Of a stretch of DNA of 64,000 nt, positions 8,794 through 33,619 are shown in pieces. How positions within the stretch are numbered: position 1 is the first letter of the stretch; each line of letters opens with the position of its first letter. The stretch comes from Cyanobacteria bacterium FACHB-471 (lineage in GTDB: Bacteria > Cyanobacteriota > Cyanobacteriia > Elainellales > Elainellaceae): the NCBI GenBank assembly GCA_014695345.1, contig JACJOC010000077.1, positions 186,001 through 250,000 of the forward strand, read 5' to 3'. The notes under the pieces are model-generated. The model worked only from the letters and a program-made list of their open reading frames with translations, did no database searches and had not been told where the DNA came from. The position numbers and the translations under genes are program-made.

Positions 8794-8852
8794 AGTCAAC
8801 CTCAAAACAATGTAGAGCGTCCCAACTTAGCTCACCCCCGTACCAACGGGAA

Positions 8853-9236
8853 CTATGCCAACGGGTCATATTGCTCTTGCTCCTGAGAGTCGGGCAGCAA
8901 CCGAGACAGGTCATTCTCTGGATTGCTAGACCGCACATTAACTGTTGTGCCGCTTTCCTTGGAAAGTTCCATATCCGGATCAAAATTCAAGCCCAACACT
9001 TCAACCAGGGCATCTTCGTTGGCATTAAGTCGATAGAAAGGCACCATCAGGTTGCCTAACTTTGGCTCTATTGCGTTGACGACACCCAAAATCAGATAAG
9101 AAGAGGGTCTACGACCTCCATCTGGCGTACGGACAGAATGGTTTTCCATTTGCAGGCTTAACCAGCCCCGATTAGTTTGGAAATAATCCAGCCACTTCTG
9201 CTTAATGGAAGTCGTAAAGTTCTCAAAAAATGCCAT
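8853..9236 (-). CDS. DUF5331 protein, upstream copy
   Basis: A 127-residue cyanobacterial protein of unknown function. Features shared with the downstream copy: the opening helix (FTTSIKQKWLDYFQTNRGWL), the core GGRRPSSYLILGVVNAIEPK, and the NxNxDxxVxxLGLNFDPD segment. The C-terminus is short and acidic. No signal peptide or membrane segment, so it is presumably cytosolic. It lies between chlL (217 bases upstream) and its paralogue (59 bases downstream) and is likely transcribed with both. The family is usually found next to chlL/chlN in cyanobacteria; that is recalled knowledge, not tested here. Confidence 0.88.
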   Translation of the reverse strand: MAFFENFTTSIKQKWLDYFQTNRGWLSLQMENHSVRTPDGGRRPSSYLILGVVNAIEPKLGNLMVPFYRLNANEDALVEVLGLNFDPDMELSKESGTTVNVRSSNPENDLSRLLPDSQEQEQYDPLA

Positions 9237-9453
9237 GTTCTTGATGCTCTTAAGCTTGCTGAAGGTATAAGTTTGAATGCCTTAAGACCAGTAGTCAAGA
9301 CCCGTCAGTCTGTACAGCATCATATTGTGGAATCTACCCATGCAATCAGCAACGCTAACAGGTTTAATGCGAAAGAGTAAAGTTTTAAATTCTGAATTTT
9401 ACACTTGTAGTTTGTACCAAAAATTCAAAATCTAAAACTTTAAAACTTTCTAC

Positions 9454-10317
9454 TTAAACCATCATCAGGTCTAGCTCTCCCTCTGCTCTCCCTTGGGGTT
9501 CTGCGGGGTTGAGGTAGAAATCAGACAGCAACGAGAACAGTTCGCGATCGGGTGAATCGTTAGGAACAACACCTTCGGGCTGAGCCAAAATTTGGTCAGC
9601 AATGTTGAGATAGTAGTCGCAGACATAGCTGAGTGAGGGATCGGTTTCTGCCATCTCAAATAGCGTTTTGCCTTTGACACGAGAGACGCGAATGTCTTCG
9701 ATTAGCGGCAAGATTTCCAGCACGGGCATAGGTACGGAATCAATGTATTTGTCGATTAGGTCACGCTTAGAGGTACGGTTGCCAATCAGTCCAGCTAGAC
9801 GTAACGGGTGAGTCCGGGCTTTTTCACGCACTGAAGCAGCAATCCGGTTAGCGGCAAATAGGGCATCGAAGCCGTTGTCAGTGACGATCATGCAGTAGTC
9901 GGCGTAGTTCAAAGGAGCAGCAAAGCCACCGCAAACCACGTCACCCAGCACATCAAACAGAATTACATCGTATTCGTCAAAGGCGTTGAGTTCTTTGAGG
10001 AGTTTGACAGTTTCTCCGACGACGTAGCCGCCGCAGCCTGCGCCTGCTGGAGGCCCACCTGCCTCGACGCAATCAACGCCGCCATAGCCCTTGTAAATTA
10101 CGTCTTCGGGCCAAACATCCTCGTAGTGATAGTCCTTTTCCTGGAGCGTGTCGATGATGGTGGGAATCAAAAAGCCGGTCAAGGTGAAAGTGCTGTCGTG
10201 TTTGGGGTCACACCCAATTTGCAGCACTTTCTTCCCGCGACGGGCAAGGGCAACAGAGATGTTACAGCTTGTTGTGGATTTGCCGATTCCACCTTTTCCA
10301 TAAACTGCTAATTTCAC
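9454..10317 (-). CDS. chlL: Light-independent protochlorophyllide reductase iron-sulfur ATP-binding protein
   Basis: A 287-residue NifH-like ATPase of DPOR; the dimer carries one [4Fe-4S] cluster and passes electrons to ChlNB with ATP hydrolysis. The P-loop [13 protein letters not shown] is near residue 7. The two cluster cysteines lie in [12 protein letters not shown] and [11 protein letters not shown]. The start is a GTG (10315-10317) with AGGAG about ten bases upstream; the ensuing [10 protein letters not shown] is standard for the family. It heads a minus-strand group with two DUF5331 genes and chlN. Its promoter must lie in the 877-base gap shared with the divergent Hsp70-like gene. Confidence 0.98.
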
Positions 10318-11194
10318 GCTGGTAATCTCCTGGTGATCTTGTTAAACGGGCTGGGATGTGACTTGTTTAGCGCTAACGTCTTGCGCCTCAGCTTCAAACT
10401 TGTCTTGGGGTTGATTGCATTATGTCGAAGCCACTTAGCAAAAGAAAGGGCCCCTAAGAATGGAACGGGGTGCTAAACAGAGCTAAGCTAAGCAACGAAT
10501 AATAAGCTCTATGAGGATTACCCTAGTCCACTCTGAAAGCTTTTGAAACCCATCTGAGAGAATTTGTAACTTTGTTTTTATAGAAATTGGAACAAAAGAC
10601 AATTTTTTGTTTTTCTTTAGGATTCATACAAGTACAAGATAAATTTAGGTAATTCTTACATCGCCAATGGTCTACGCCAAAGGGCACTGATTGAAGAGTG
10701 TTGCGTAGTACTCAATCTATCGCTTGTTGGGGCTTCTAGCGATCGCCAAGGGTCAGGGCAGATTTTGCCGAGTCAGGTTGAATTTTGCCGTTAAACCTTT
10801 GGTTGGTAAGGGTTTTGCCTACTAAGCTAGCCCCTGTCGCATTGCGGCTATCTAAGGGATTTTCCCTGGCTTCAACCCTATAGTTGTTTCGTTCACGCTG
10901 CTAATTGTCCAGGGTAAAGCTGAGCGATCGCCTCAAAAACTACCCTGTTTTCCCCAAATTCCAATCTTGTTAAAAATAATAAATTTTGCAATTTTCTGCT
11001 AACTCTTGAGCCGTCAGGGCAATAGATCAATCCTTCCAACAGAAGTATTTCCAGGATCAACAGTGGCAAACTAGAATCTCAACTAAATTAGTTGTGGATT
11101 CGGTTAATCCTACAAGTTCTACGACCGACTCATCTCATAGCTGATTTTGAACTGTTATAGAGATATAAAAAATTAGCGATCGCCCCCGTTCAAC
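10318..11194. other. Divergent intergenic region, chlL / Hsp70-like
   Basis: About 0.88 kb between two divergent genes, so it must hold both promoters. It is A+T-rich around 10560-10660 (close to chlL) and 10960-11190 (close to the Hsp70-like gene), with HIP1 copies around 10738, 10923 and 11176. No small gene, tRNA or clear hairpin was recognised. Confidence 0.5.
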
Positions 11195-12784
11195 ATGGTT
11201 TACGCAATCGATTTTGGCACCAGCAACACCGTCATTGCTCGTTGGAATGCAGCTACTCAGCAACCAGAAACTTTAGCTTTAGCAGATTTATCCTTTCGAC
11301 TGGGACAAAACCCGCCCCTGATTCCCAGCTTGGTATACGTTGAGGATGCCGCTAGCGGCAAGGTGTTGGCGGGTCAAACAGTGCGCGATCGCGGACTGGA
11401 TCTGAGCAGCGATTCTCGCTTTTTTCGCAACTTTAAACGGGGAATTGGGGCTGAGGTTCAGGGGTTTCTGCCAGAGTTAGATGGGCAAACGGTGACGCTG
11501 GAGCAAACCGGACAGTGGTTTTTAACCCAGGTGATTCAACAGCTTCAGAGTCTTGACCCGGACTTTGACTCCCTGGTCTTTACGGTTCCAGTAGACAGCT
11601 TTGAGGCATATCGCAACTGGCTGTCAGGCGTTTGTCAATCGCTGCAAGTTGAACAGGTGCGAATGCTGGATGAGCCAACTGCTGCTGCTCTGGGCTATGG
11701 CTTGACCGCAGGGGAAACGCTGCTGGCGATTGACTTTGGTGGTGGCACTCTAGATCTGTCGCTGGTGCAGCTTCAAGGCGATCGCCAATCCCAACCAAAA
11801 CCAATGGGTTTCATCCTTAAATGGGGACAAAAAACGCTGACAGAATCCGGTCAGCGTTCCAAAACTGCCCGTGTTCTAGCCAAAGCCGGGCAAAATTTGG
11901 GCGGTTCGGACATCGATAACTGGCTAGTCGATCACTTTGCAACCACCCAAGGCTTAGCCGTCACACCCCTGACACTGCGACTGGCAGAACGGCTCAAAGT
12001 GCAGTTATCAGAGCAAACTACAGCAACTGAAGCCTACTTTAATGACGAAACCTTTGAAAGCTACGAGTTGCAGCTAGACCGCGATCGCTTCACTACCATT
12101 CTTCAAGAACACCAGTTTTTTGAACGATTAGATGAGTCGATGACGCAAGTGCTGCGGCAGGCAAGACGACAGGGGCTAGAAGTGGCTGATATTAATGCCG
12201 TTTTGCTAGTCGGGGGTACTGCCCAAATTCCTGCTGTACAGGACTGGGTGAAACAGTATTTTGAACCAGAAAAAATTCGCTCAGAACGTCCGTTTGAAGC
12301 GATCGCCCAAGGCGCTTTGCAAATTCATCAGGGAATTGACCTGAAAGATTTTCTTTATCACAGCTACGGCATCCGCTATTGGGATCGGCGCAACAATCGC
12401 CACAGTTGGCATCCTCTGATTAAAGAAGGACAGCCTTACCCCATGCCTGACCCGGTTGAACTGGTGTTAGGTGCATCCACTGAAAACCAACCCAGCATCG
12501 AACTCGTGATTGGTGAATTGGGGACTGAATCGGGCGGCACTGAGGTATTTTTTGAGGGCGATCGCCTCGTCACCCGCAGCCTCGGCAGCGGCAAAACTCA
12601 GGTGCAACCGCTCAACGATCAGGCAAGCACGATTGCTAAACTCACCCCTCCCGGGTTTCCAGGTAGCGATCGGATCAAAGTGCTGTTTTGGGTGGATGGC
12701 GATCGCTTCCTCAGAATCACCGTTGAAGACTTATTTTCTGCTGAAACGCTGTTAGAAAATCGAGCAGTAGTGCAGTTGAGTTAG
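11195..12784 (+). CDS. Hsp70-family protein (DnaK-like ATPase domain)
   Basis: 529 residues. Actin-like nucleotide-binding motifs are visible: phosphate-1 loop AIDFGTSNTVIARW at the N-terminus, the DEPTAAALGYG helix, phosphate-2 LAIDFGGGTLDLSL, and the adenosine motif VLLVGGTAQIPAVQ. The C-terminal 150 residues are a short beta-rich region instead of a full substrate-binding domain and lid, so it is not a canonical DnaK (about 630 residues). An insertion with PKPMGFILKWGQK follows phosphate-2. Cyanobacteria commonly have several such variants; the substrate is unknown. ATG at 11195. It ends about 95 bases before the metallothionein gene. Confidence 0.93.
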   Translation: MVYAIDFGTSNTVIARWNAATQQPETLALADLSFRLGQNPPLIPSLVYVEDAASGKVLAGQTVRDRGLDLSSDSRFFRNFKRGIGAEVQGFLPELDGQTVTLEQTGQWFLTQVIQQLQSLDPDFDSLVFTVPVDSFEAYRNWLSGVCQSLQVEQVRMLDEPTAAALGYGLTAGETLLAIDFGGGTLDLSLVQLQGDRQSQPKPMGFILKWGQKTLTESGQRSKTARVLAKAGQNLGGSDIDNWLVDHFATTQGLAVTPLTLRLAERLKVQLSEQTTATEAYFNDETFESYELQLDRDRFTTILQEHQFFERLDESMTQVLRQARRQGLEVADINAVLLVGGTAQIPAVQDWVKQYFEPEKIRSERPFEAIAQGALQIHQGIDLKDFLYHSYGIRYWDRRNNRHSWHPLIKEGQPYPMPDPVELVLGASTENQPSIELVIGELGTESGGTEVFFEGDRLVTRSLGSGKTQVQPLNDQASTIAKLTPPGFPGSDRIKVLFWVDGDRFLRITVEDLFSAETLLENRAVVQLS

Positions 12785-12813
12785 AGAATCGAGACTTACC
12801 TATCCCAGGGATG

Positions 12814-12831
12814 TATGAATAACTGTTCATA
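12814..12831 (+). promoter_or_regulatory. SmtB/ZiaR-type operator in metallothionein promoter
   Basis: TATGAA-TAACTG-TTCATA: perfect six-base arms, six-base spacer. On the other strand it reads TGAACAGTTATTCA, the sequence known from the SmtB site of the Synechococcus smt operator. It lies 49 bases before the metallothionein ATG, with a possible -10 (CATTAT) at 12839-12844, so a bound repressor would block RNA polymerase. Zinc would relieve it. Confidence 0.8.
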
Positions 12832-12879
12832 GGCTGGCATTATGGGGAAGTCAATTGAAGTCGATTCTGGTAAAAAGCT

Positions 12880-13041
12880 ATGGCAACTGTGACTCAAATG
12901 AAATGTGCTTGTGATGCTTGCGTCTGTGTAGTGGCAATTGAAGACGCGATCAAAAAAGACGGAAAGAATTATTGCAGCGAGGCTTGTGCCAATGGGCATC
13001 CCAGTGGTGAGAGCTGTGAGCATCAAGGTTGTGATTGTTAG
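12880..13041 (+). CDS. smtA: SmtA-type bacterial metallothionein
   Basis: A 53-residue cytosolic zinc-buffering protein. Nine cysteines (residues 9, 11, 14, 16, 32, 36, 46, 51, 53) and His40 and His48 follow the SmtA pattern: CACDACVC, then the zinc-finger-like YCSEACANGH, then a Cys-terminated tail. The family binds four Zn2+ in a Zn4Cys9His2 cluster. It is complete, from ATG at 12880 to TAG at 13039. The ribosome binding site is weak. An SmtB-type operator lies upstream, but no smtB gene is adjacent; an ArsR-family gene near 62.6 kb is the only family member in the window. Confidence 0.95.
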   Translation: MATVTQMKCACDACVCVVAIEDAIKKDGKNYCSEACANGHPSGESCEHQGCDC

Positions 13042-13072
13042 ATGAGGGCGATCGCTAAATAGCTTGATAGAG

Positions 13073-13900
13073 CTAAGCAGGACGGGAAATGTGAAAGGCA
13101 GAAACATAAGCCAGTTGAACCGTATCACCGTTCTGCTCTAACACTTGGCGTAATTCTGCAAACAAGGACTGCTTCTGCTGAGCTTCTAGCTTCAAGTAGG
13201 GCGAATAGGTATTTAACAGCAGCAAGTACTGATCAACGGTGTAAGTAACTTCTACTTCTATGTGCCCAGCTACCAGATCTTGGAAATAGCCGGATGCGAT
13301 GGCCATTTGTCCCATTTCATTCAAAATTGCCATCTGGGTAGCACTGTCTTCATAGGAGCGGTTGAGGGTCGGCTCATGGGTTTGATAAATCTCAGATAGC
13401 TGCTGATAAACCTCATATTGAGGCTGGAGTTCTTTATTCCACAGCAAAATCAGCTGTCCTTCTGGGCGCAATGCTGCCGCCGCTTTCGGATAACCAATCT
13501 CTGGCGGAATCCAGTGAAATGAACTCGCTGCCAATACTGCATCAAATGATTGGGGTACTAACTCCCATTCTTCAAATGAGCAATTTTGCAGTTCTACTTG
13601 GGGATAAGCTGTACAAGTTTGTTGCGCTAGGTGATAGAAATCCGAATTAGGTTCTACACAGACCATGTGACAACCTAGAGCCGCAAATGCAGGAGTGGCG
13701 ATCGCGGGTCCACATCCGACTTCCAGCAGCGATGAGTTAACGGAGAGTTGGGCAATATCTACAACGCGATCGATCAGCGCCTGAGGATAGCGGGGTCTGA
13801 CCTGTTGATATGCTTCAGCAGCAGGCGAATACCAGTGCTTGCGTTGTTCTAAATCTCTGCCATAACACTCATTTTGAAGAGTCTGCTTCAAATCTTTCAT
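13073..13900 (-). CDS. Class I SAM-dependent methyltransferase
   Basis: About 275 residues; ATG at 13900 preferred over the GTG just before it. SAM-binding motif I is SLLEVGCGPAIATPAFAALG near residue 60, the acidic residue ending strand 2 is in VCVEPNSDFY, and motif II is DAVLAASSFHWI. The N-terminus YSPAAEAYQQVRPRYPQALID is typical of the UbiE/Methyltransf_11 group of broad-specificity cyanobacterial methyltransferases. The substrate cannot be deduced. It converges with the metallothionein gene, 31 bases between the stops. Confidence 0.88.
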   Translation of the reverse strand: MKDLKQTLQNECYGRDLEQRKHWYSPAAEAYQQVRPRYPQALIDRVVDIAQLSVNSSLLEVGCGPAIATPAFAALGCHMVCVEPNSDFYHLAQQTCTAYPQVELQNCSFEEWELVPQSFDAVLAASSFHWIPPEIGYPKAAAALRPEGQLILLWNKELQPQYEVYQQLSEIYQTHEPTLNRSYEDSATQMAILNEMGQMAIASGYFQDLVAGHIEVEVTYTVDQYLLLLNTYSPYLKLEAQQKQSLFAELRQVLEQNGDTVQLAYVSAFHISRPA

Positions 13901-22120: not shown

Positions 22121-23071
22121 CTAACCTAGTGCGTTCGCGCCGCCGACAACTTCCAGAATTTCCTGGGTAATTGCGGCTTGACGAGCTTTGTTGTAGGACA
22201 GAGACAAGCCTTTGATTAGCTCTTTAGCGTTGTCACTGGCGTTGTTCATTGCCGTCATTCGGGCAGCTAGTTCACTCGCTGCAGATTCTTGCAGGGCCCG
22301 CAACAACTGGTTGTTAAGATACAGCGGCAACAGTGCATCCAAAATTTGGATAGGATCTTGCTCAAAAATCATGTCTTGAGGCAAGGGTGCTTGCGCTGCG
22401 GCTTCGACTCGTTGTCGCTCAACCTGGAATTCACCGCCCCGACTGGTCAACCTGAAAATTTCGTCATCCTGTGGCTCTAACCCTTGTGGGTCGAGTGGCA
22501 ACAGCGTTTGAACGACGGGACGAGAGCTAACCAGGGAGACAAACTTGGTGTAAATCAGTTCAACTCGATCTACTTCTTCTGCTAAAAACAGAGACAGCAG
22601 TTCGTCGGCGATTTGAGAAGCTTCGGATGAGGTAGGAATCTGTTCTAGTCCAGAGAAGGAGGCGCTGATAGGGCGCTCCCGACGCTGAAAGTACTGATTG
22701 GCTTTGCGACCAACGAGAACCAGCTTGTAGTTAACGCCTTCAGCCTGTAGCTCTTTGATGCGTGCTTCAGCTCGCTTAATCACGTTGCTGTTGTAGCCAC
22801 CGCAGAGTCCGCGATCGCCCGATACAACTAGCAGACCAACGGTTTGCACATCCCGCTTCCGCAACAGCGGCAGGTCAGCATCTTCAAACCGAAGGCGCAT
22901 TTGCAAGCCATAAAGTACCTGAGCCAAGCGATCGGCAAAAGGACGGGTTGCAATCACCTGCTCCTGGGCACGACGCACCTTAGCCGCCGCCACCAGTCGC
23001 ATCGCTTCTGTAATTTTTTGAGTATTCTTGACCGACTTGATGCGATCGCGAATTGCTTTGAGGTTTGCCAT
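22121..23071 (-). CDS. atpC: ATP synthase subunit gamma
   Basis: 316-residue central-stalk subunit of F1 (called AtpG in E. coli naming). The N-terminal helix [31 protein letters not shown] and the C-terminal helix ending [17 protein letters not shown] form the rotating coiled coil. It carries the cyanobacterial/chloroplast-type insertion region (about residues 195-235: [17 protein letters not shown], then [12 protein letters not shown]). The regulatory Cys pair of plant chloroplasts is absent, as expected for cyanobacteria. Last gene of the operon. Confidence 0.97.
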
Positions 23072-23078
23072 AGGTAGG

Positions 23079-23130
23079 AAAGGGGGGGGGGTAGGGGCTA
23101 GGGGCTAGAAGCTAGGGGCTAGCCCCTAGC
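23079..23130. repeat. GGGGCTA short tandem repeat between atpC and atpA
   Basis: A run of ten G followed by repeated TAGGGGCTAGGGGCTA units and an inverted copy TAGCCCCTAGC, so the transcript can also fold. It fills almost the whole 68-base gap between alpha- and gamma-subunit genes. Confidence 0.8.
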
Positions 23131-23139
23131 TCCTCTCCT

Positions 23140-24657
23140 CTACGCCGTTGCCAGGAAAGTTTTCTTTTGTTCAGCGATCGCCTCTTTCAGCAAGGTTTCG
23201 GCTTCGTCGCTCAGCTTCTTCTCGGAGCGGACGATTTCGCCAAAACGGGGCTTACTGTTTCTCAAGTACTCCCGGAGAGAAGCGGTGAAGCCTGTCACCT
23301 TATCAACGGGTAGGTCATCCAGGTAGCCGTTGATGCCTGCGTAGATGATGGCGATTTGCTCAGCTACGGGCAGCGGTGAGTTTTGTGGCTGCTTTAGAAT
23401 TTCGCGCAAACGCTGACCGCGTGCAAGCTGGTTCTGAGTAGACTTGTCCAGGTCAGAAGCAAACTGTGAGAAAGCTTCCAGTTCAGCAAACTGAGCCAAT
23501 TCCAGCTTCACCTTGCCGGCAACCTGCTTCATCGCCTTGATCTGAGCCGCAGAACCTACACGGGATACGGAGATACCCGCGTTTACCGCTGGACGTAGAC
23601 CAGAGTTAAACAGGTCAGAAGACAAGAAGATCTGACCATCCGTAATCGAAATTACATTGGTAGGAATGTAGGCAGATACGTCACCCGCTTGGGTTTCTAC
23701 GATGGGCAGAGCAGTCATGCTGCCTTCACCCAATTCAGGGCTGAGCTTCGCCGCGCGCTCCAGCAAACGAGAGTGGAGGTAGAAAACGTCGCCGGGGTAA
23801 GCTTCACGTCCGGGTGGACGGCGTAGCAGCAGTGACATCTGGCGGTAAGCCTGTGCCTGCTTTGACAAGTCATCGTAAACCACCAATGTCGCTTTGCCCT
23901 TGTACATGAAGTACTCAGCCAAGGTTGCGCCGGTGTAGGGAGCCAGGTATTGCAGGGTAGCTGGGTCGTTGGCGTTTGCAGCGACGACAATGGTGTAGTC
24001 CATTGCACCGCGCTCTGCCAAGGTGTCTACCACCTGAGCAACAGTGGATGCCTTTTGCCCGATCGCCACGTAGACGCAGATTACATCTTCACCCTTCTGG
24101 TTGAGGATGGTGTCTACAGCAACGGCAGTTTTTCCGGTCTGGCGGTCACCAATGATTAATTCTCGCTGTCCCCGACCGATGGGAATCATTGCGTCGATTG
24201 CGGTGATTCCTGTTTGCAGAGGCTCATACACTGACTTCCGGGCAATGATGCCGGGAGCGGGAGACTCAATCAAGCGGGTTTCACCTGTATTGATGTCGCC
24301 TTTGCCATCAAGAGGACGCGCCAATGCATCGACCACACGGCCAATCATCGCATCGCCCACTGGAACTTCGGCAATTCTACCGGTTGAGTTGACAGAGCTG
24401 CCTTCCTGGATGCCGCGACCGTCACCCATCAAAACCGCGCCAACGTTGTCTTCTTCCAGGTTGAGGGCGATACCAACGGTGCCGTCTTCAAACTCCAGCA
24501 GTTCTCCCGCCATTGCCTGATCTAGACCATAGATCCGGGCAATGCCGTCGCCTACTTGCAGGACGGTTCCTACATTGGAAACCTTGACATCCTGGTCATA
24601 CTGTTCAATCTGCTGCCGAATAATGCTGCTAATTTCGTCTGGTCTAATCGCTACCAT
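23140..24657 (-). CDS. atpA: ATP synthase subunit alpha
   Basis: 505-residue non-catalytic nucleotide-binding subunit of F1. Walker A is [11 protein letters not shown] near residue 170, the alpha/beta signature [17 protein letters not shown] near 365, and the N-terminal [20 protein letters not shown] is typical of cyanobacteria. Full length. The catalytic beta subunit is not in this operon; cyanobacteria carry atpB-atpE elsewhere. Confidence 0.99.
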
Positions 24658-24717
24658 GATTGCTTCTCTCTAACAAGATGATAAACACAAGATGATGAAA
24701 GGAGTCGATTTGCGCGC

Positions 24718-25275
24718 TTACGTTGCGCTACTCAAGCGAAGCCCAATTCTTCTTAATTGCCCGCGCAGGCTAGCATCAATCACCTGGGAGCCAACTTTAA
24801 TGATGACACCGCCAATTAGATCAGGGTCGATATTTTTTTCTAGCTCAACCTGCTGTGCGCCGACCAAGGTCAAAACTTTTTGACGAACGGACTCTTCCTG
24901 AGCTTCTGACAAATCTACCGCCGAGATGACTTCTGCCAAAACGGTTTGCTTCAGTTCGCGCAGGAGTACCTGGTATTGCTTACAGATTCCCTCCAGGAAA
25001 AGAACACGACCGCGATCGACCAGAATTCTGAGGAAGTTCAGCATAAAAGGATGAACCTGCTCTCCGGCAAGCTGTTCTAGCACCCCTTTTTTGGCTTCTG
25101 GCTTGGTTAGTGGGCTAGACAAAAACTGGCGTAACTCTTCTGATTCGTTTAGCAGACTGAGCAAGTAGGCAACGTCTTCACCAAAGCGGTCGGTTAAGTC
25201 ATTTGATTGAGCTACCGCCATGAGTGCTTTGGCATACGGCTCCAGGATTCCTCCCATCACTAGCGTATCTTTCAC
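24718..25275 (-). CDS. atpH: ATP synthase subunit delta
   Basis: 185-residue peripheral-stalk subunit that joins the b/b' stator to the top of F1. The C-terminal motif IDPDLIGGVIIKVGSQVIDASLRGQL is the OSCP/delta family signature. It starts at GTG 25275 and overlaps the atpF stop codon as GTGA (25272-25275), meaning coupled translation. AGGAGGA precedes the start. An ATG seven codons in (MGGILEPYAKAL) is a possible alternative. Confidence 0.97.
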   Translation of the reverse strand: MKDTLVMGGILEPYAKALMAVAQSNDLTDRFGEDVAYLLSLLNESEELRQFLSSPLTKPEAKKGVLEQLAGEQVHPFMLNFLRILVDRGRVLFLEGICKQYQVLLRELKQTVLAEVISAVDLSEAQEESVRQKVLTLVGAQQVELEKNIDPDLIGGVIIKVGSQVIDASLRGQLRRIGLRLSSAT

Positions 25276-25835
25276 GACTCTCCTCCTAGCATAGCGATGC
25301 TGCGGTCAATCAACTGCTGCTGCGTATTTTCATTCAAGTCAGACTTGAGACGAGATTCAGTCTGTGTCAAGGCCAGTGCTACGACCCGTTGACGCAGTTC
25401 AGCGATGATCCGCTCTTGCTGCGAGTTGAGGTCTTGCGCGGCAGCGGCTTTGATACGCTGAATGTCTTGCTCAGTCTGGACTAAGACCGCTTCTTTTGCC
25501 TTCTTGGCGCTTTCTTCAGCAGCAGCACGAATGCGGGTGGCTTCAGTCTGCGCTTGAGCTAGCTTTTGCTGCTGATCTGCTAGGGCTGAGGCTGCATCTT
25601 TCTTCCGCTTTTCTGCATCTCGAATGGCAGTCTCAATTTTTTCGCGGCGTTCTGACAGGATCTTTCCTATAAATCCGCGACCAAAGTAAAACAACACTCC
25701 CAGGATAATCGCCAGGTTAATTAGGTTGGTATCCAGAATGTTGAAATTTAACCCGAATCCACCTTCTTCGGCCGCTTCCGAGAAATCGTTGGCGATCGCC
25801 CCAGCCTCGGCTGCTAAAAATAACAAAGTCCCCAT
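25272..25835 (-). CDS. atpF: ATP synthase subunit b
   Basis: 187-residue stator subunit. One membrane helix (ILDTNLINLAIILGVLFYF, about residues 33-52) is followed by a long charged helix (SERREKIETAIRDAEKRKKD and on) that forms the right-handed stalk coiled coil with b'. The first 25 residues, LLFLAAEAGAIANDF, resemble the processed leader of cyanobacterial b subunits. Confidence 0.97.
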   Translation of the reverse strand: MGTLLFLAAEAGAIANDFSEAAEEGGFGLNFNILDTNLINLAIILGVLFYFGRGFIGKILSERREKIETAIRDAEKRKKDAASALADQQQKLAQAQTEATRIRAAAEESAKKAKEAVLVQTEQDIQRIKAAAAQDLNSQQERIIAELRQRVVALALTQTESRLKSDLNENTQQQLIDRSIAMLGGES

Positions 25836-25871
25836 GATTCCTTCTCTAATCTGCTCGACCTTACACCGAAC

Positions 25872-26363
25872 CTAGCCCACTGCCGATGAGCCTAAAAGCT
25901 TTTCTAAAATTTGGCGGCTAAGTGCATCTACCTGCTGTTCAAGCGATTGCATCGCTGCTTGCTTTTGCTGGTCTAGCTCCTGCTGCACCTGTTCACGCTG
26001 TGCCTGGGCTTCCTGCTGGGCTTCGGCGATCTTGGTAGCAGCAATCTTTTGAGCATCCGCTTGAGCCGCTGCGATTACCGCTTGAGACTGTCTGCGGGTT
26101 TCTGCCAACTCCTGCTCATATTGCTTCGCTAAATGCTCTGCCTTTGCCAACCGCTCACGAGCATCGGTCAAGTTAGTACGGATGTAGCTGTCACGTCCAT
26201 CAATGGCCTGCCCAAGCGGCTTATAAAAAATGGCATTGAGAATGGCAACCAGAATGAGGAACTGTACCGCCATCAGCGGCAAGGTTGCATCTATGTCAAA
26301 CAGTCCGCCTCCTCCCTCTTCAGCGGCAGCCTCGACAGCAAGCAGAATCGTCCAATAACTCAT
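25872..26363 (-). CDS. atpG: ATP synthase subunit b'
   Basis: 163-residue second b-type subunit, present in photosynthetic bacteria. The membrane helix [21 protein letters not shown] is followed by the [19 protein letters not shown] motif and a long Gln/Ala/Glu-rich helix. It pairs with subunit b in the stator. It begins 36 bases before atpF, within the operon. Confidence 0.97.
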
Positions 26364-26504
26364 ATTCAGTGCCCCAGTTTCCTAAAACTCCAAGTGGGGG
26401 TCAGACAACAAATTGGCTGTCATGTCTACCAATTACTTTTGAGAAAAGCTTCTCTAAGCAAAGCGAATGGGTAGAGACGTGTGCCTCTACCCAGAGCCCC
26501 AAGC

Positions 26505-26831
<327 letters not shown>

Positions 26832-26886
26832 CTAAGCGTTGGGTTACCCAACTGCTACAGCAGAGCCTTACAAGCAACTGAGGAGA

Positions 26887-27648
26887 CTAGTGTTCCTCAT
26901 GACCCTCACCATGATGATCCTCCATCGCTTCTCCGATGTAGGCTGCCGCCAGGGTCGCAAAGATGAGTGCCTGAATTGCACTGGTAAAGAGACCCAAAGC
27001 CATTACTGGCAGCGGTACAAACAAAGGCACGAGGAGAACCAGCACTCCAACCACTAGTTCATCTGCCAAGATGTTGCCAAACAGACGGAAACTAAGGGAA
27101 AGAGGCTTGGTAAAATCTTCAATGATTTTAAAGGGCAGCATGAAAGGTACAGGCTGCACGTAGTTACCGAAATAGCCCAACCCTTTCTTACTGAACCCAG
27201 CATAGAAATAAGCCAGGGAAGTTAGCAGCGCAAAGGCGATCGTCGTATTGATGTCGCTTGTCGGCGCAGCCAGTTCACCTTCGGGTAGCTCAATCAATTT
27301 CCAGGGCACCAGAGCGCCTGACCAGTTTGAGACGAAGATAAACAAAAACAGCGTGCCAACAAAGGGAACCCAAGGGCGATACTCCTTTTCACCAATCTGA
27401 TCTTTTGCCAGCCCTCGAATAAATTCCAACGCATATTCCATCAAGTTCTGGGTTCCTGATGGAACTCGTTGAAGATTTCGTGTTGCGAGGAGTGAAACAA
27501 TGATCAGAACGCCAATCACAAACCAGGAGGTAAGAAATACCTGCCCGTGTACTTTGAGATTGCCGATATGCCAGTAAAGATGCTGACCAACTTCTAGCTC
27601 AGCCAGGGGAAAAGAGGTGAAGGCACTTAGAGAATTCAGCATTTCCAT
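26887..27648 (-). CDS. atpI: ATP synthase subunit a
   Basis: About 253 residues, Fo proton-channel subunit (AtpB in E. coli naming). Start ATG 27648 is chosen because the family begins [20 protein letters not shown]; ATG 27642 is equally possible. Five to six membrane helices are visible; the essential Arg lies in [18 protein letters not shown]. The tail [11 protein letters not shown] is His/Glu-rich. The gene follows atp1 with 46 bases between. Confidence 0.97.
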
Positions 27649-27694
27649 TCGCAAGGTTTCCCCAGAGAATTGTGGAGTACCAGACTCGCCTGAC

Positions 27695-28135
27695 CTAGTT
27701 TGGATCAGGCACAACCGATGTTCGCAGAACGTAAATGATGAGCCCAGCTTTATAAGTCAGAAATCCTAAAAAAATAGGCATGATTTGAAGCTGATCCCAG
27801 CGCGATGCCACTAGAATCAGCAGAATCAGAAGGGCAAGCCGGGTGTTACTCAGGCGCTGCTTCTCTCTGCCAAGCTGCTCAACGTTTTTAGCCAACATCC
27901 TCAAGTAAACCACACCCGTACACGCTCCGATCAGATAATTCAGAGCAATGTTTAGGGAATAGAAAATCCATACAGAGATAAAAATTATCCCAGTGAGAAC
28001 GAGGATCACTTTCAACAAATCTTGTTGAAGCTTGATGTATTCCTGCATTGAGGAATTTGGATCTGGCGGCAAACCACCAGATGGGGTGTCTCCTTGATCA
28101 GGAGCGGTTTCTAGGGATCTTTCTGGCGAGTTCAC
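27695..28135 (-). CDS. atp1: ATP synthase subunit I (assembly protein Atp1)
   Basis: 146-residue membrane protein that opens the operon, thought to help assemble the c ring. It has a hydrophilic N-terminus of about 40 residues, then four hydrophobic segments ([62 protein letters not shown]), as in the AtpI/Atp1 family. The start is GTG 28133-28135; no strong ribosome binding site is visible. The operon promoter should lie in the 204 bases before it. Confidence 0.92.
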
Positions 28136-28339: not shown

Positions 28340-28711
28340 CTATATTTGGGCAAGCTGTTGCTCAATTGTCTTGGTCAGCGGAGTCTCGATATCTCCGGTG
28401 TGCTGAGTTGTTACGGTTTCAATCAGGACAATCCAGCATTCATTTTCGGCAACTGGGTTGTGCATCACGCCTTTGGGTACCACGCAAAAATCGCCTTCTT
28501 CAAGTTCGACTACATCATCTTCAAACTGAATCACTAAACGCCCTTTGACCACGTGGAACAATTCGTCCTCGTGGTCATGCTTGTGCCAAGCCGGTTCACC
28601 TTTAAGCTTCGCGACCTTAATGTACTGGTCGTTAACCTGACCAACAATTTTAGGTGACCAAAATTCAGTAATACTCTGGAGTTCCTTCTCAAAATTTTTG
28701 CTGAGCTGCAT
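28340..28711 (-). CDS. Cupin-domain protein (single cupin)
   Basis: 123 residues. The two cupin motifs are present: motif 1 WHKHDHEDELFHVVKGRLVI (two His and Glu as metal ligands) and motif 2 GDFCVVPKGVMHNPVAE (third His). It is therefore a probable metal-binding small-molecule enzyme or binding protein; the ligand cannot be deduced. It is the last of four same-strand genes (cysteine hydrolase, cupin, CocE hydrolase, this one), with an 89-base gap before it, so membership of the operon is uncertain. Confidence 0.85.
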   Translation of the reverse strand: MQLSKNFEKELQSITEFWSPKIVGQVNDQYIKVAKLKGEPAWHKHDHEDELFHVVKGRLVIQFEDDVVELEEGDFCVVPKGVMHNPVAENECWIVLIETVTTQHTGDIETPLTKTIEQQLAQI

Positions 28712-28800
28712 TTTGGTTTCCTTGGACTTTCGTTCAACTCGGAACTTTCACTCAAATTGGCTGGACAACCAGTTGAGAATCTAAGAGTTCAAATAGGGCT

Positions 28801-30513
28801 TCAAACTAAAACTGAATTAAGCGTTGCTGCTAAAGGTGCGCCGGTCACAGGTAAAAGCACCTGTGACAGGTGGCTGCTGCCACTATATATAGATAGCGTG
28901 ATGATTTGAGCGTCTATGAGCTGACTGTTGCCGGGTGACGTGCCTGTACCGGGATTGACAGCGTAAGCAGGAAAGCAAGCAGCACTGAAGCTGAGTCGTA
29001 GAGCATTTCCTTTGGCAATTTGAGCGCAAATGGGTTGCAAGACGATCCGGAATGGCTCGGTGAAATTGGGGGTAGCGTCATCTGAGCTTGAGTCGATTCG
29101 CAGGTAGCCTTGAACCAGATTGTAGGCGCTGCCGTTGGGGTGAACTTCGGATAGGACGGCACAGAGGTCGAAGCTGGGAGCATCAGCAGTGCAGTAGAGT
29201 TGGGCGATCGTCTCCCCCATCAAATACAAATCCTCATCCAAAGGCTTCGTTGTATAGGTCACAACATCAGTCCGGCAATCGACTGCTGAGCGATCGAATG
29301 AGCCTGCTGGAAATGCAGCGTGTCCCCCGACAGACGGTACGGGTCGCCAGGGGTCATGAACAAAGACATCCTGGGAATCGGATGTGGGCGGTGTTTTTTC
29401 CAGGCTGCCTTCCTGATCGCTCATGGTGGCAAGTCCGGGGCTATGGAGGAAGTAGGGTTGTTGCTTGGCGGTGGGGAATTTTGGGAGTGATCGCCACTGA
29501 TTACTCCCCAGTTCGAACAGGTGAACAGGCTTCTCGTTTAACAACCCTGTATCAATGCCTTTGAGAAACTGGTCAAACCAGCGAATTTGCAGGCGATCGA
29601 TCGGGTTTGCGGCTTTTGCGTCATAGTCAACCGCTCCAACTTTTCGTCCCCAGGGAAGGTGTGCCCAAGGTCCAACCCAGAGATGCTGTGGAAATTGACT
29701 GCGGGCGACCATTTCACGGTAAAACCTGAGCGTTCCGCGCATGTAGGTATCAAACCAACCGCCGATGTGCAGCATCGGCATATCTACATCGGCTAGATAG
29801 CGCCCAGGTGAAAGGTTTTCCCAGTATTCGTCTCGCCAGGGATGGTTTAACCAAGTGTGGTAGTAGGAATCTGGGGCAAGCTGCTTGAGCAATCTAGAGC
29901 GAACATCGACCGGATCGGGCAACGGAGGATTTCGGGCGGCTCCGTAAAGGGTCAGGTATGCTTCCTCATCACCCTTGAGTCGAGCAGTTTCAGCCGCAAG
30001 CTGAATTGCCCAGCCTAAATTTGTTTGGAGGCAAAAGGCTCCTCCTTCATAAGCCCAATCTGCGTAGAGGTCGTAGCCAATCATCGCAGGGCAGATGGTT
30101 TTTAGGGCGGGGGGACAACTACCAGCCGCATAAAGCTGAGTCATTCCCTGATAGGAAAAGCCGTACATTCCCACTTGCCCGGTGCTGCCTGGGAGTGTCG
30201 CTGCCCAGTTGACCGTGTCGCCTCCGTCCTCGACCTCGCAGGCAAATAGGTCAAACACTCCTTCTGAAGTGCCTCGTCCCCGCACATCCTGAATCACAAC
30301 GATGTAGCCGTGAGCGGCATACCAGGTGGGATGAGCATAGACCACTGTGGAGGCGATCGCCCGTCCATAGGGCTGTCGCATTAGCAGCACGGGAAACTCC
30401 CCCTCAGCATCGGGGTAGTAAACATCTGCATCTAGCCGCACGCCATCGCGGGTCAGCATGGATGCAGTTTGTTTTTGTCGAACTAGGAGCATGAATTCAA
30501 TAGGGTACAGCAC
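28801..30513 (-). CDS. CocE/NonD family serine hydrolase
   Basis: 570-residue alpha/beta hydrolase of the X-Pro dipeptidyl-peptidase/cocaine-esterase type, which cleaves esters or amides. The nucleophile serine is in GMYGFSYQGMTQLYAAG (GxSYxG). The family segment LHIGGWFDTYMRGTLRFY supplies the Asp region, and WVGPWAHLPWG the His. The C-terminal third is the PepX jelly-roll domain (TYTTKPLDEDLYLMGETIAQ and on). No signal peptide, so it is cytosolic. The first start in frame is GTG 30513; ATG 30492 (MLLVRQKQTASM) is perhaps more likely. It lies 58 bases after a cupin gene. Confidence 0.9.
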   Translation of the reverse strand: MLYPIEFMLLVRQKQTASMLTRDGVRLDADVYYPDAEGEFPVLLMRQPYGRAIASTVVYAHPTWYAAHGYIVVIQDVRGRGTSEGVFDLFACEVEDGGDTVNWAATLPGSTGQVGMYGFSYQGMTQLYAAGSCPPALKTICPAMIGYDLYADWAYEGGAFCLQTNLGWAIQLAAETARLKGDEEAYLTLYGAARNPPLPDPVDVRSRLLKQLAPDSYYHTWLNHPWRDEYWENLSPGRYLADVDMPMLHIGGWFDTYMRGTLRFYREMVARSQFPQHLWVGPWAHLPWGRKVGAVDYDAKAANPIDRLQIRWFDQFLKGIDTGLLNEKPVHLFELGSNQWRSLPKFPTAKQQPYFLHSPGLATMSDQEGSLEKTPPTSDSQDVFVHDPWRPVPSVGGHAAFPAGSFDRSAVDCRTDVVTYTTKPLDEDLYLMGETIAQLYCTADAPSFDLCAVLSEVHPNGSAYNLVQGYLRIDSSSDDATPNFTEPFRIVLQPICAQIAKGNALRLSFSAACFPAYAVNPGTGTSPGNSQLIDAQIITLSIYSGSSHLSQVLLPVTGAPLAATLNSVLV

Positions 30514-30571
30514 TTAGGCTAGGGGCTTGGCACTGCTAAGTTCCTACAGCAGGCTAATTAATTTACGTTTT

Positions 30572-31024
30572 TTAGCGCGGCACCAGTGAATCAGAGCGAC
30601 TCAAAACTGCCATGTCTTCTGCGTCTAGCTCAACTGGAGTGCCGCTGCGAATCAGTTCAGCAAAGTCTTCATTCGGCACCATAATGCATAGAGTGTACAG
30701 GCGATCGGAACCTGTATTTTCCAGCACATGGGTTCCAGTAGGCGGCACTAAGACGCTGTCTCCTGCTCGAATCGATACTGTTTTGCCATCACAGGTTGCG
30801 AGCCCTTCGCCCTTGAGGACAAAGAACATTTCAACTGCAAGCTGATGTCGGTTGGGAGGTGTTTTGCCGCCTACGTCAAAGATTTCTACGCAATAGGTTA
30901 AAGACATGTTGGCGATCGTGGGGTCAAATACGATCGCCAATCGATTGCTGTCGTGAGGGCTGATCCGAAAGGCCTGGTAGTCTTTGGGAGATTTATAAAC
31001 CGGAATAACACAAGCAGAATCCAT
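30572..31024 (-). CDS. Cupin-domain protein
   Basis: 150 residues. Motif 1 is NRHQLAVEMFFVLKGEG and motif 2 GDSVLVPPTGTHVLENTG. The first metal ligand position is a single His (RHQ), so metal binding may differ from classic cupins. AGGAATCTC-like spacing precedes the ATG at 31024. It lies between the cysteine hydrolase (28 bases upstream) and the CocE hydrolase (58 bases downstream), which suggests one operon acting on one substrate. It is unlike the other cupin at 28.3 kb. Confidence 0.85.
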   Translation of the reverse strand: MDSACVIPVYKSPKDYQAFRISPHDSNRLAIVFDPTIANMSLTYCVEIFDVGGKTPPNRHQLAVEMFFVLKGEGLATCDGKTVSIRAGDSVLVPPTGTHVLENTGSDRLYTLCIMVPNEDFAELIRSGTPVELDAEDMAVLSRSDSLVPR

Positions 31025-31052
31025 GAGATTCCTCCGGGAGTAGTGAGTGTTT

Positions 31053-31817
31053 CTAACCGATCGCTTTTAGTAAAGTTTCAGAATCGCTGACAAATCCAAA
31101 GCACTGATTGACGTTATAAATGGTCGCTTTGAAGCAGTAGTCGGGAGAGGTGGTGGCGGTGCAATCGCGCAGCAAAATGCAGTCATAGCCGAGGAAATTG
31201 GCATCCTGTAAGGTTGCCATGACGCACTGGTCAGCATTGACCCCAGCAAAGAAAATCGTGGTTCGACCCAGGTTTCGCAGAATGCTATCTAGCGGCGTGT
31301 CCCAAAAGCCGCTCATCCGGTACTTATCGACGTACACATCGGTAGGCTTTTGCTCTAGCTCGTCTACCACAGCCGCTGCCCAACTGTCTTTCATTAGAAC
31401 AGGTGCCGAATTTGTGGGAAGCGGGTCGCCTAGACCAACACCTTCTCCCGTTGGGTTGTAAACGTGACGCAGTCCGGCACTGATATTGAGTAAATCAGGG
31501 CGGTTGCCCCAGTTAATCCAGAGAATTGGTACACTAACCTGCCGAAGTTCCGGCACCAGAGTTTTGAGGGGGGCGATCGGGTCACGCGCGGGGGTGACAT
31601 CGACACCAATATGCGCTAGCCAACCGTCAGGGTGACAGAAGTCGTTTTGCATATCGATGATAGCGATCGCCGCCTTTGCTAAATCTAGCCGTAGGGTCTT
31701 TGTATCAGTCGCCAATGTGATCGGTCTAGGTGGCAGGGGCGGACGGGTAATGTCTGCGGTTGCAGCATCCACCGACCAAGCATTAGGCGCGACACCCAGA
31801 GTCCGGAGTTGAGTCAT
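31053..31817 (-). CDS. Cysteine hydrolase, isochorismatase-like family
   Basis: 254 residues. The Asp-Lys-Cys catalytic triad of the family is visible: Asp in AIAIIDMQNDFCHPDGW, Lys in VYVDKYRMSGFWDTPL, Cys in FFAGVNADQCVMATLQDA. The insert NRPDLLN then GEGVGLGDPLP resembles the arrangement in biuret hydrolase and RutB-type amidohydrolases, so amide substrates from N-heterocycle breakdown are plausible, not proven. It heads a minus-strand group with a cupin and the CocE hydrolase and diverges from an amidohydrolase. Confidence 0.9.
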   Translation of the reverse strand: MTQLRTLGVAPNAWSVDAATADITRPPLPPRPITLATDTKTLRLDLAKAAIAIIDMQNDFCHPDGWLAHIGVDVTPARDPIAPLKTLVPELRQVSVPILWINWGNRPDLLNISAGLRHVYNPTGEGVGLGDPLPTNSAPVLMKDSWAAAVVDELEQKPTDVYVDKYRMSGFWDTPLDSILRNLGRTTIFFAGVNADQCVMATLQDANFLGYDCILLRDCTATTSPDYCFKATIYNVNQCFGFVSDSETLLKAIG

Positions 31818-32194
31818 AGGTCGTTCAGGTCAAGAGCTATGAAGATTGCAAAATGGGCAAAATTAAGAGTGAAATCTGTAAGCCGTTGAGAATCAGAACT
31901 GAGCCTTTGAACCTTCTGTGGTAAACCAAAACCGGGCTGGCTTCAGTATTGAGGGGCACTTCTTGGACTACCTCTGCCTAAAGAGTTAAGCCGTGAATTC
32001 TTGAGCGAGGTTGCGAGGTTTGGACAATCTCCACCAGTAGCCAAGCCTGCTACATCGAAATCAGGTTTACGAATGTACAATCTATCCTGAAATAGGGAGT
32101 TGGCAACGTATTGTTATTGCTCCTTAAGATTGTTCTTCCCTGAAAGAATTTCCCCTGAAACTCTTTTCGAAATTTGCTGCAAAGGATAGAAATC
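31818..32194. other. Divergent promoter region, cysteine hydrolase / amidohydrolase
   Basis: 377 bases between two divergent enzyme genes, so both promoters are here. A GTT-N8-TAC at 32065-32078 is one base off the NtcA consensus GTA-N8-TAC, but no good -10 stands at the right distance. No hairpin or small gene was recognised. Confidence 0.45.
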
Positions 32195-33619
32195 GTGAGT
32201 TTTACAATTCAAAGTGTTCTGATTCCAACTGAGCAGGGTTATGAAACGGTTGACGTGCAGATTAAGGGCGATCGCATCACTCAAATTGGCCCGAACCTGG
32301 AACCAACTGGAACCCTGATCGACGGACGCAACAAACTGCTGCTTCCTGGATTTGTCAACGCTCACACCCACTCCTCAGAAATGTGGCAGCGGGGCATCAT
32401 TCCACCCCGACCGCTAGAACTTTGGATTGCCGAACTCTACGACTTCACGCCGCTAAACCCCGAACGAATTTACCTTAGCGCCCTTGGCACAGCAGTTGAA
32501 ACGCTGCTCTCTGGCGGCACCAGCGTCGTCGATCATCTGGTGCTAATTCCTGGACAGGAGGCGGAAACAATTGCCGCTGCGGTACGAGCTTACCGAGAAG
32601 TCGGCATTCGAGCCTTTGTCGGTCCGCTGATTCAGGATGAATCGCTGGGGGCAAGCGTCCCTACGGGTGGCGAAGAAGTCAAACATGAACCTTACCTTCG
32701 CACTACCCAAGCCACGCTCGATCTAGTTCAAGATGCGGTGGAGAAATTTCACCGTCCCGCTGAAGGCATCAGCATCATGGTTGCGCCAACGGGAATTCAG
32801 CTCTGTTCAGATGCGCTGTTTGAAGGGTGTGCTGAGTTGAGCGATCGCCACAACCTTTGCCGCCACGCCCACCTACTTGAGACAAAAGCGCAGCAAATTC
32901 TGGCGCAAGAAAAATATGGCTGCACTGCTGTCGAACACCTAAAGCACATTGGCTACCTCAGCCCTCGCACCTCTTTAGCGCACTGCGTTTGGCTCGATGA
33001 CAGAGACATTAGCATCCTGGCAGAGACTCAATCCACCGTCGTCCATAACCCTCTCAGCAACTTGCGTCTGGGCAGCGGCATTGCTCCCATTCCCAAGTAT
33101 CGGGAGGCAGGTGTGAATGTCGCCTTTGGCTGTGATGGTTCAGCCAGCAACGACTCGCAAGATTTGCTCGAAGCCATCAAAATCGGCTCCATCCTGCACA
33201 ACATCACCGACATGGACTACCGCCACTGGATTTCACCCCGCGAGTCGGTCGAAATTGCCTCCCTCGGTGGCGCAACCGGACTCAACATGGGCGACCAACT
33301 AGGAACGCTCACGGTCGGCAAAAAAGCAGACCTGGTGCTGTACGACCTGACCAATCTTTCCCTACTGCCTCGCACCGACCCAATTGGACTACTGGTTTTG
33401 GGTCGTCCCGTGCAAGCAGTCAGTAGCGCTTGGGTAGATGGCAAACAGATTGTCGCTGACGGTAAAGTGACAACTATCGATGTCAATCAGCTTAGACAAG
33501 CTCTCTTTGACCACAGTGAATGGCGCACTAACCGCAAATCTAAAACAATGGAAGAGATGGAGATTCGCTATCGTGCCGTGATGGGACTGCCGGAAGGAGT
33601 GGCTAGGGGCTATAGCTAA
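32195..33619 (+). CDS. Amidohydrolase, TRZ/ATZ (SAH/8-oxoguanine deaminase-like) type
   Basis: About 474 residues, metal-dependent hydrolase. The GTG at 32195 with AGGA eight bases before it is the likely start (MSFTIQSVLIPT). Metal-site motifs are PGFVNAHTHSSEMWQ (HxH), CRHAHLLETKAQ, SLAHCVWLDDRDI and FGCDGSASNDSQDLLEAIK with its Asp. The GSASNDS signature is shared by 8-oxoguanine, S-adenosylhomocysteine and triazine aminohydrolases, so a deaminated or dechlorinated N-heterocycle is the expected substrate class. Divergent from the cysteine hydrolase. Confidence 0.92.
   Translation: MSFTIQSVLIPTEQGYETVDVQIKGDRITQIGPNLEPTGTLIDGRNKLLLPGFVNAHTHSSEMWQRGIIPPRPLELWIAELYDFTPLNPERIYLSALGTAVETLLSGGTSVVDHLVLIPGQEAETIAAAVRAYREVGIRAFVGPLIQDESLGASVPTGGEEVKHEPYLRTTQATLDLVQDAVEKFHRPAEGISIMVAPTGIQLCSDALFEGCAELSDRHNLCRHAHLLETKAQQILAQEKYGCTAVEHLKHIGYLSPRTSLAHCVWLDDRDISILAETQSTVVHNPLSNLRLGSGIAPIPKYREAGVNVAFGCDGSASNDSQDLLEAIKIGSILHNITDMDYRHWISPRESVEIASLGGATGLNMGDQLGTLTVGKKADLVLYDLTNLSLLPRTDPIGLLVLGRPVQAVSSAWVDGKQIVADGKVTTIDVNQLRQALFDHSEWRTNRKSKTMEEMEIRYRAVMGLPEGVARGYS

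Follow-up and report, generated by a model that had tools for sequence, protein, structure and literature searches.

The window analysed here is a stretch of 64,000 nucleotides from Cyanobacteria bacterium FACHB-471 (GenBank assembly GCA_014695345.1, contig JACJOC010000077.1, positions 186,001 to 250,000). Three of its genes, amiH, cysH and cupB, which encode a TRZ/ATZ-type amidohydrolase, a cysteine amidohydrolase of the isochorismatase superfamily and a single-domain cupin, cluster and co-occur in many other cyanobacteria. The genes, their families and catalytic residues, their conservation, clustering and co-occurrence were read directly from the sequences. We give about an even chance to the interpretation that amiH, cysH and cupB form the core of a pathway that frees ammonia from a small N-heterocycle or ureide, in which the substrate would be deaminated and then decarbamoylated, and which would end via AtzEG and HpxZ. 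A preliminary description of the window had placed five genes here and named their families and motifs; all five open reading frames (ORFs) are present, and the Pfam and NCBIfam assignments were concordant for all of them. The features are as follows.

28340-28711, minus strand: cupA, a second cupin (Cupin_2, 48 bits), probably not in the module.
28801-30513, minus strand: cocE, a CocE/NonD serine hydrolase (Peptidase_S15 and PepX_C; TIGR00976, 470 bits, cut-off 66.3), a facultative member.
30572-31024, minus strand: cupB, a single-domain cupin (Cupin_2, 58.3 bits), a core member.
31053-31817, minus strand: cysH, an isochorismatase-superfamily cysteine amidohydrolase of a RutB-like subfamily (PF00857, 122.9 bits, cut-off 27), a core member.
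31818-32194: the intergenic region between the divergent cysH and amiH, which lacks an exact NtcA box and matches nothing in Rfam.
32174-33619 (ORF; revised start 32195), plus strand: amiH, a TRZ/ATZ-type amidohydrolase (Amidohydro_1, PF01979, 171.9 bits, cut-off 25).

A scan of genome contigs with CysH returned at least 570 loci, from which the best 80 were taken; all are cyanobacterial records, with a CysH identity of 75-86% in the best segment. Neighbouring genes were counted in these loci by tblastn with identity thresholds, and the counts are lower bounds because many of the loci are shorter than 20 kb. In 72 of the 80 loci, cupB was located downstream of cysH at a distance of at most 3 kb; amiH was divergent from cysH and within 3 kb in 41, and cocE was within 3 kb in 21. 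When only loci with enough flanking sequence were counted, 68 extended at least 1.2 kb downstream, and 65 of these had cupB (the exceptions are L007, L013 and L083); 68 extended at least 2.5 kb upstream, and 38 of these had amiH. Clustering the ORFs of the same 80 loci gave similar values for cupB, amiH and cocE (70, 46 and 23, against 72, 41 and 22 by tblastn). The genes flanking the cluster in the window, used as a control (atpI, a response regulator, a coiled-coil protein and menB), had no relative in any of the 80 cysH loci; atpI is the first gene of the adjoining ATP synthase run. Chance proximity is thus insufficient, as cupB, amiH and cocE recur near cysH whereas the flanking controls never do. 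A relative of cupA was likewise absent near cysH in all 80 loci. The preliminary description had counted this cupin as part of the set; given its absence against the counts for the other genes, we excluded it as an accident of the window and define the core as cysH-cupB with amiH.

The same arrangement was evident at the genome level. We drew 156 cyanobacterial genomes evenly; cysH (called at E <= 1e-50) was present in 30 and absent from 126, with one match per genome, and the sequences in the other 29 are 68-81% identical to that of the window. Among all 156 genomes, amiH was detected in 25, cupB in 37 and HpxZ in 9. The cysH and cupB genes are adjacent on the same strand, with gaps of 28-449 bp, in 29 of the 30 cysH genomes (the exception is G110). 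Of these 30 genomes, 22 have amiH. It lies within 6 kb of cysH in 18 of them, always divergent, and in the other four it is farther than 6 kb from cysH or on a different contig. For comparison we used 28 of the 126 genomes without cysH, a non-random subset in which 8 genomes were included for having cupB, amiH or both, which works against a contrast. The cocE gene was found in 15 of the 30 cysH genomes and in 14 of these 28, and is therefore not associated with cysH; CocE, which the preliminary description had also placed in the set, is at most a facultative member. The clustering in other genomes on which that description had made its proposal depend was looked for and was found in many, so the proposal stands on this point. 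Three genomes have amiH without cysH and eight have cupB without cysH, and two arrangements lacking cysH, a divergent amiH/cupB pair in G046 and a divergent amiH/cocE pair in G027, suggest a functional tie and not merely the common descent of one block. The distant amiH genes, the lack of association of cocE and the occurrence of cupB without cysH would be expected if these were chance neighbours with unrelated roles; against this stand the flanking-gene control and the recurrence of a cysH-cupin pair across phyla (see below), and we regard this explanation as extremely improbable.

CysH belongs to the isochorismatase-like superfamily by its PF00857 score and its Asp-Lys-Cys triad. The triad (Asp55-Lys165-Cys198) aligns with that of the biuret hydrolase BiuH (Asp36-Lys142-Cys175), and the segment RPDL...GLGDPLP aligns with the BiuH insert RPDL...GIGDPGP, so that both the triad and the biuret-hydrolase-like insert of the preliminary description were recovered. 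Its hint of biuret hydrolysis did not hold as family membership. CysH failed both the RutB model (TIGR03614, 126 bits, cut-off 378) and the BiuH model (NF050097, 113 bits, cut-off 370), and the genome of the window encodes a TrtA-like protein as well as a distinct BiuH that passes the cut-off (410 bits). The triad is also shared with the solved BiuH and TrtA structures (PDB 6azo and 6xix), but BiuH Lys145 is replaced by Met168 in CysH at the aligned position. In a published study of BiuH, Lys145 variants were effectively inactive (PMC5806882). The possibility that CysH is the biuret hydrolase of this genome, in a biuret or triuret degradation route, could draw on the shared insert and triad and on genome G011, where TrtA and BiuH are ~8 kb and ~10 kb from cysH; with the low score, the lost lysine and the separate BiuH set against it, its probability is close to negligible.

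The closest solved structures to CysH are those of RutB, followed by BiuH and TrtA. A Foldseek search with the predicted CysH model gave the same order, with RutB chains first, though it adds little because the confidence of the model is low (mean pLDDT of 66, with residues 105-150 below 50). RutB (PDB 8bkd) has the fold, the triad and the segment KxRxSGF..TPLDSIL in common with CysH, where BiuH has KPGKGSF, but the two are only 31-33% identical, and CysH differs by its own signature NxDQCV and by the BiuH-like insert. NxDQCV is present in the aligned cyanobacterial, proteobacterial and actinobacterial CysH sequences. A Rut-like pyrimidine route, with CysH acting as RutB on ureidoacrylate and RidA as RutC, would account for RutB being the best NCBIfam, PDB and Foldseek match and for the shared segment. 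A RidA gene is located upstream of cysH, on the cysH strand, in 11 of the 80 loci, and in the two that were scanned it scored 67-70 bits with the RutC model, below the cut-off of 169. RutA was searched in the 30 cysH genomes and in 14 control genomes; none of the former passed the cut-off of 498 (five weak matches, best 139 bits), whereas two of the latter did. To our knowledge, the Rut pathway includes neither a cupin nor a TRZ/ATZ deaminase, and this together with the missed RutB and RutC cut-offs makes such a route quite unlikely. Because both cut-offs of the CysH comparison were missed, Lys145 is replaced, a separate BiuH exists and no RutA in the cysH genomes passed its cut-off, we place CysH, from its sequence, in a distinct RutB-like subfamily. 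As an analogy with RutB suggests, the conserved Arg167 of CysH may contact a carboxylate, in keeping with an N-carbamoyl (ureido) acid as substrate.

Several other genes accompany cysH. Among the 80 loci, HpxZ was found in 4 and both AtzE and AtzG in 2. In locus L026, HpxZ, amiH, cysH, cupB, cocE, an FAD oxidase and AtzE are all within ~12 kb, and in L049 cysH, cupB, a DUF952 protein gene, AtzG and AtzE form a run on one strand. The nucleoside-type transporter gene NupC is on the amiH side of cysH in 9 of the 80 loci, within 3 kb in 3 of them. A DUF952 protein is encoded downstream of cysH in 11 loci (L018, L019, L029, L034-L037, L043, L049, L054 and L075); it was also observed near AtzE in three other genomes (L109, L111 and L114), as an unexplained companion of both modules.

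At the genome level, each of the 9 genomes with HpxZ in the set of 156 also has cysH. AtzE (at least 60% identity) was detected in 24 of the 30 cysH genomes and in 3 of the 28 comparison genomes, three more of which have matches at 39-40%, and AtzG precedes AtzE in 13 of the 19 AtzE loci inspected. In the window's genome, AtzE (734 bits, cut-off 461), HpxZ (213, cut-off 135) and AtzG (PF13318, 78, cut-off 24) all scored over their cut-offs; AtzG-AtzE is on contig C63, with RidA and an FAD oxidase close by, and HpxZ is on contig C110. We take HpxZ to be the equivalent of AtzH. Relatives of AtzE, AtzG and HpxZ, which belong to the AtzGEH/Hpx ureide module of cyanuric acid and oxalurate catabolism, thus occur together with cysH, in several genomes as linked genes, but the AtzD family was found in only 3 of the 30 cysH genomes, one as a fragment, and in none of the 28. 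We know of no AtzGEH/Hpx module that contains the amiH-cysH-cupB core. AtzH, a DUF3225 protein, has been suggested to follow AtzEG as a decarboxylating 1,3-dicarboxyurea amidohydrolase (PMC6219798). BiuH over the cut-off was found in 6 of the 30 cysH genomes and 1 of the 28, and HIU hydrolase in 8 and 2, respectively. The FAD oxidase near RidA and AtzEG, which resembles ThiO and sarcosine oxidase, was considered as a specific partner and dropped, being present in 25 of the 30 cysH genomes against 17 of the 28.

AmiH has the features of the TRZ/ATZ-type superfamily (PF01979). The metal ligands H64, H66, H233, H270 and D321 and the catalytic E236, as well as E69 (all numbered from 32174), are present in 45 of 45 cyanobacterial AmiH sequences, that is, the HxH, His, His and Asp ligands with the catalytic Glu. 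The start codon is more likely the GTG at 32195 than the TTG at 32174, because AAAGGA is found shortly upstream of it and the listed ORFs of relatives begin at the aligned codon. The preliminary description had read a GSASNDS motif in this protein and a divergent orientation to the cysteine hydrolase gene, both of which were recovered (plus and minus strands). The best NCBIfam model was 8-oxoguanine deaminase (NF006055), which AmiH failed with 272 bits against a cut-off of 532; the best PDB chain, 3hpa, is named only as an amidohydrolase, and the third-best, 7ww2, as 8-oxoguanine deaminase. AmiH has the metal ligands and catalytic Glu in common with the 8-oxoguanine/guanine deaminase cluster and with TrzN, and GSASND in common with the 8-oxoguanine deaminase chain and TrzN. 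The third position after HxH, however, is Gln in 7ww2 and 3hpa, Glu69 in all 45 AmiH sequences and Glu in TrzN. According to PMC12828455, the Gln after beta-strand 1 of guanine deaminase binds the exocyclic oxygen of the substrate, its replacement gives an inactive enzyme, and 8-oxoguanine deaminase and AtzB are placed in the guanine deaminase sequence cluster. We took this Gln, from the alignment, to be the one at the third place after HxH; since Glu69 replaces it in 45 of 45 sequences, AmiH is probably not a conventional guanine or 8-oxoguanine deaminase, and that assignment was rejected.

These residues bear on an oxidised-purine route, in which AmiH would act as 8-oxoguanine (or guanine) deaminase and the product would pass to urate and then to allantoin and oxalurate steps. 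The rank of the 8-oxoguanine deaminase model and chain is in line with such a route, as are the co-occurrence of HpxZ and AtzE with cysH and the presence in the window's genome of HpxO, HIU hydrolase and OHCU decarboxylase. Nevertheless, the missed cut-off, the invariant Glu69 and the occurrence of HIU hydrolase in only 8 of the 30 cysH genomes argue against it, and we consider its probability low.

Beyond cyanobacteria, relatives of CysH were found in 49 plasmid records, 14 of them at 60-80% identity. Relatives of CupB were found in 7 plasmid records, all beside a CysH match by coordinates, and most plasmid CysH records are therefore without a CupB match. From the 25 CysH records that were listed, eight contexts were inspected, together with a ninth found by a cupin match in Pseudomonas silvicola (11 Escherichia records are outside this selection), and a tenth was inspected for amiH. 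The cysH-cupin pair recurs on Pantoea, Roseomonas and Pseudomonas plasmids. The two Pantoea contexts have the gene order BMP-NupABC-type transporter, cupin (52% identical to CupB), CysH (63%) and TRZ/ATZ amidohydrolase, with a creatininase nearby. The Roseomonas context encodes CysH (60%), a cupin (50%), a creatininase, an ABC transporter, an amidase and HpxZ (71% identical to the HpxZ of the window's genome), and a CocE relative (47%) is next to HpxZ in the same stretch as CysH. In Pseudomonas silvicola, a BMP protein, a cupin and an amidohydrolase annotated in pieces were found, with an unannotated partial CysH match between them. Paraburkholderia has a BMP-NupABC transporter divergent from CysH-amidase-AtzG-AtzE-HpxZ, Rhizobium and Variovorax have a BMP transporter, CysH, an amidase and a gamma-glutamyltransferase, and the Rubrobacter context has a gamma-glutamyltransferase and a 37% relative. 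The statement in the preliminary description that there is no transporter is true of the five genes of the window, whereas in relatives the set has NupC or BMP-NupABC next to it.

The creatininase-family genes near cysH in Pantoea and Roseomonas (cyanobacteria were not searched for creatininase) raise the possibility of a creatinine- or hydantoin-like route, with a deaminase, a creatininase-family step, CysH acting like an N-carbamoylsarcosine amidase and an FAD oxidase of the sarcosine/glycine type. The last step could be supplied by the ThiO/sarcosine-oxidase-like enzyme, whose gene neighbours AtzEG and RidA in the window's genome and was found close to cysH in 2 of the 80 loci. This enzyme is below every listed cut-off and is not specific to cysH genomes, and the N-carbamoylsarcosine-amidase-related chain 3eef is a weaker match to CysH than RutB is, making such a route very unlikely.

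For the nitrogen-releasing route proposed here, we infer the chemistry of each step, the order of the steps, the substrate and the inclusion of AtzEG and HpxZ. AmiH, as a metal-dependent hydrolase, would strip an amino (or similar) group from a ring, with Glu69 in contact with the substrate. Ring opening by a further enzyme, perhaps the cupin, would give an N-carbamoyl (ureido) acid, and Cys198 of CysH, with Asp55 as base and Lys165, would attack the terminal ureido carbonyl and release ammonia and CO2. RidA would hydrolyse an enamine or imine where the product is one, and the AtzG-AtzE amidase and HpxZ of the genome would process the remaining ureido-carboxylate. The cluster for N-heterocycle or amide catabolism suggested in the preliminary description is thus retained, clustered in other genomes and joined by AtzG-AtzE, HpxZ, RidA and nucleoside-type transporters, and is modified with respect to cupA, CocE and the transporters.

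CupB has His60, Glu65 and His99 invariant in 20 sequences, and these are likely metal ligands. Its predicted model (pLDDT of 74.8) is a cupin barrel and gives no pointer to function. Two cupB paralogs (~70% identity) without cysH were also observed in the window's genome (L085 8998-9459 and L086 3114-3554); one is near an HpxO-like FAD monooxygenase (247 bits, cut-off 500), and a gene near the other resembles, by eye, what we take to be a nitric oxide synthase oxygenase.

A number of observations weigh against the proposed route. The co-occurrence counts above and their Fisher tests take no account of kinship, and the Fisher values were not used as proof. Genome G110 has cysH but no cupB match, and amiH is missing at the threshold used from 8 of the 30 cysH genomes. 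In 7 of the 8 genomes with cupB but no cysH, neither amiH nor cocE is beside cupB, and cupB may have a role of its own, given that it is found without cysH. HpxZ is missing from 21 of the 30 cysH genomes and AtzE from 6, and in the window's genome both AtzEG and HpxZ are on contigs other than that of the window; the FAD oxidase is also common without cysH. Beyond cyanobacteria the pairing is partial, as indicated by the plasmid counts for CupB and CysH. No cupin was seen in the inspected Rhizobium, Variovorax and Paraburkholderia contexts, and that of Streptomyces, another of the nine, has no module gene except CysH. The Pantoea amidohydrolase may be a different enzyme, as it is only 28% identical to AmiH and has the glutamine that Glu69 replaces in AmiH.

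Regulatory sites weigh in the same direction. The NtcA box is GTAN8TAC, and such boxes were not enriched upstream of cysH (6 of 79, against a mean of 5.2 in shuffled sequences and 3.5 in stretches taken at random from these loci). Nitrogen control is thus unsupported, and metabolite repair remains a serious rival, in which the module would clear a damaged or side-product heterocycle made in the cell, such as an oxidised base or a pterin, and would not serve nitrogen acquisition. The single, similar cysH of each genome would fit repair, as would the presence of NupC near cysH in only 9 of the 80 loci, where other transporters were not searched for. However, NupC or BMP-NupABC transporters accompany cysH in several lineages, and cysH is restricted to 30 of the 156 cyanobacteria; on balance we consider repair unlikely, with a chance that is nonetheless appreciable. 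In other searches, neither the window nor 7 of the loci had an Rfam match, and promoter-like sites (2, against 4.5 in shuffles) and terminator-like sites (7, against 5.5 with a standard deviation of 2.4) were within the spread of the shuffles.

In the window, the gaps are 28 bp between cysH and cupB, 58 bp between cupB and cocE and 89 bp between cocE and cupA. An ATP synthase gene run on the minus strand (22121-28135; three genes by profile scan, the rest by eye) is located directly past cupA and starts 204 bp from it.

Other loci for nitrogen compounds were observed in the same genome. A triuret/biuret-type locus (C63:197000-212000, L106, ~4817-13379) encodes BMP and ABC-transporter proteins, a formamidase, BiuH and the TrtA-like protein, of which the formamidase and BiuH are over their cut-offs, and also a small protein that resembles the C-terminal end of allophanate hydrolase. 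BiuH accompanied by a weaker, TrtA-type second match was found in 7 of 58 cyanobacterial genomes searched, six of which were inspected as loci. A floodplain nitrifier study reports BiuH-TrtA-NupABC and oxalurate genes, which are of the same kind as this locus (PMC12625717). A urate-to-allantoin cassette (C28:42000-60000, L137, 8000-10039) has HpxO (647 bits, cut-off 500), HIU hydrolase and OHCU decarboxylase genes side by side. A protein of the cyanuric acid hydrolase/barbiturase family (PF09663, 468 bits) is encoded on C36 (L136, 9629-10669); this family was over the cut-off in 3 of the 58 genomes, one of them with a fragment.

We recognised no description of an amidohydrolase-cysteine hydrolase-cupin cluster in cyanobacteria in the open-licence literature, and an article on dimethylguanine hydrolases (PMC13054789) had no match to the cluster-context words. 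Ureide and N-heterocycle catabolism is already known in kind; the cluster itself is widespread and tightly conserved. More tentatively, and with a less than even chance of being correct, we propose that CysH founds a new isochorismatase-like subfamily in cyanobacteria, Proteobacteria and Actinobacteria, accompanied by its own cupin almost always in cyanobacteria and sometimes elsewhere. It would perform the key step of an undescribed ureide pathway; in cyanobacteria, AmiH would supply it from a heterocycle outside all known pathways, for example a pterin or an oxidised base. The adjacency of cysH and cupB in 29 of 30 genomes and the 68-86% identity of CysH across genomes and loci indicate strong constraint on the pair. 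A solved function would cover genes for a 'cysteine hydrolase' and a 'cupin' in cyanobacteria and on plasmids of Rhizobium, Paraburkholderia and Pantoea, and would help to explain the roles of AtzE, AtzG and HpxZ beyond herbicide degradation. It could also point to a source of organic nitrogen for cyanobacteria or to a metabolite that becomes damaged in them.

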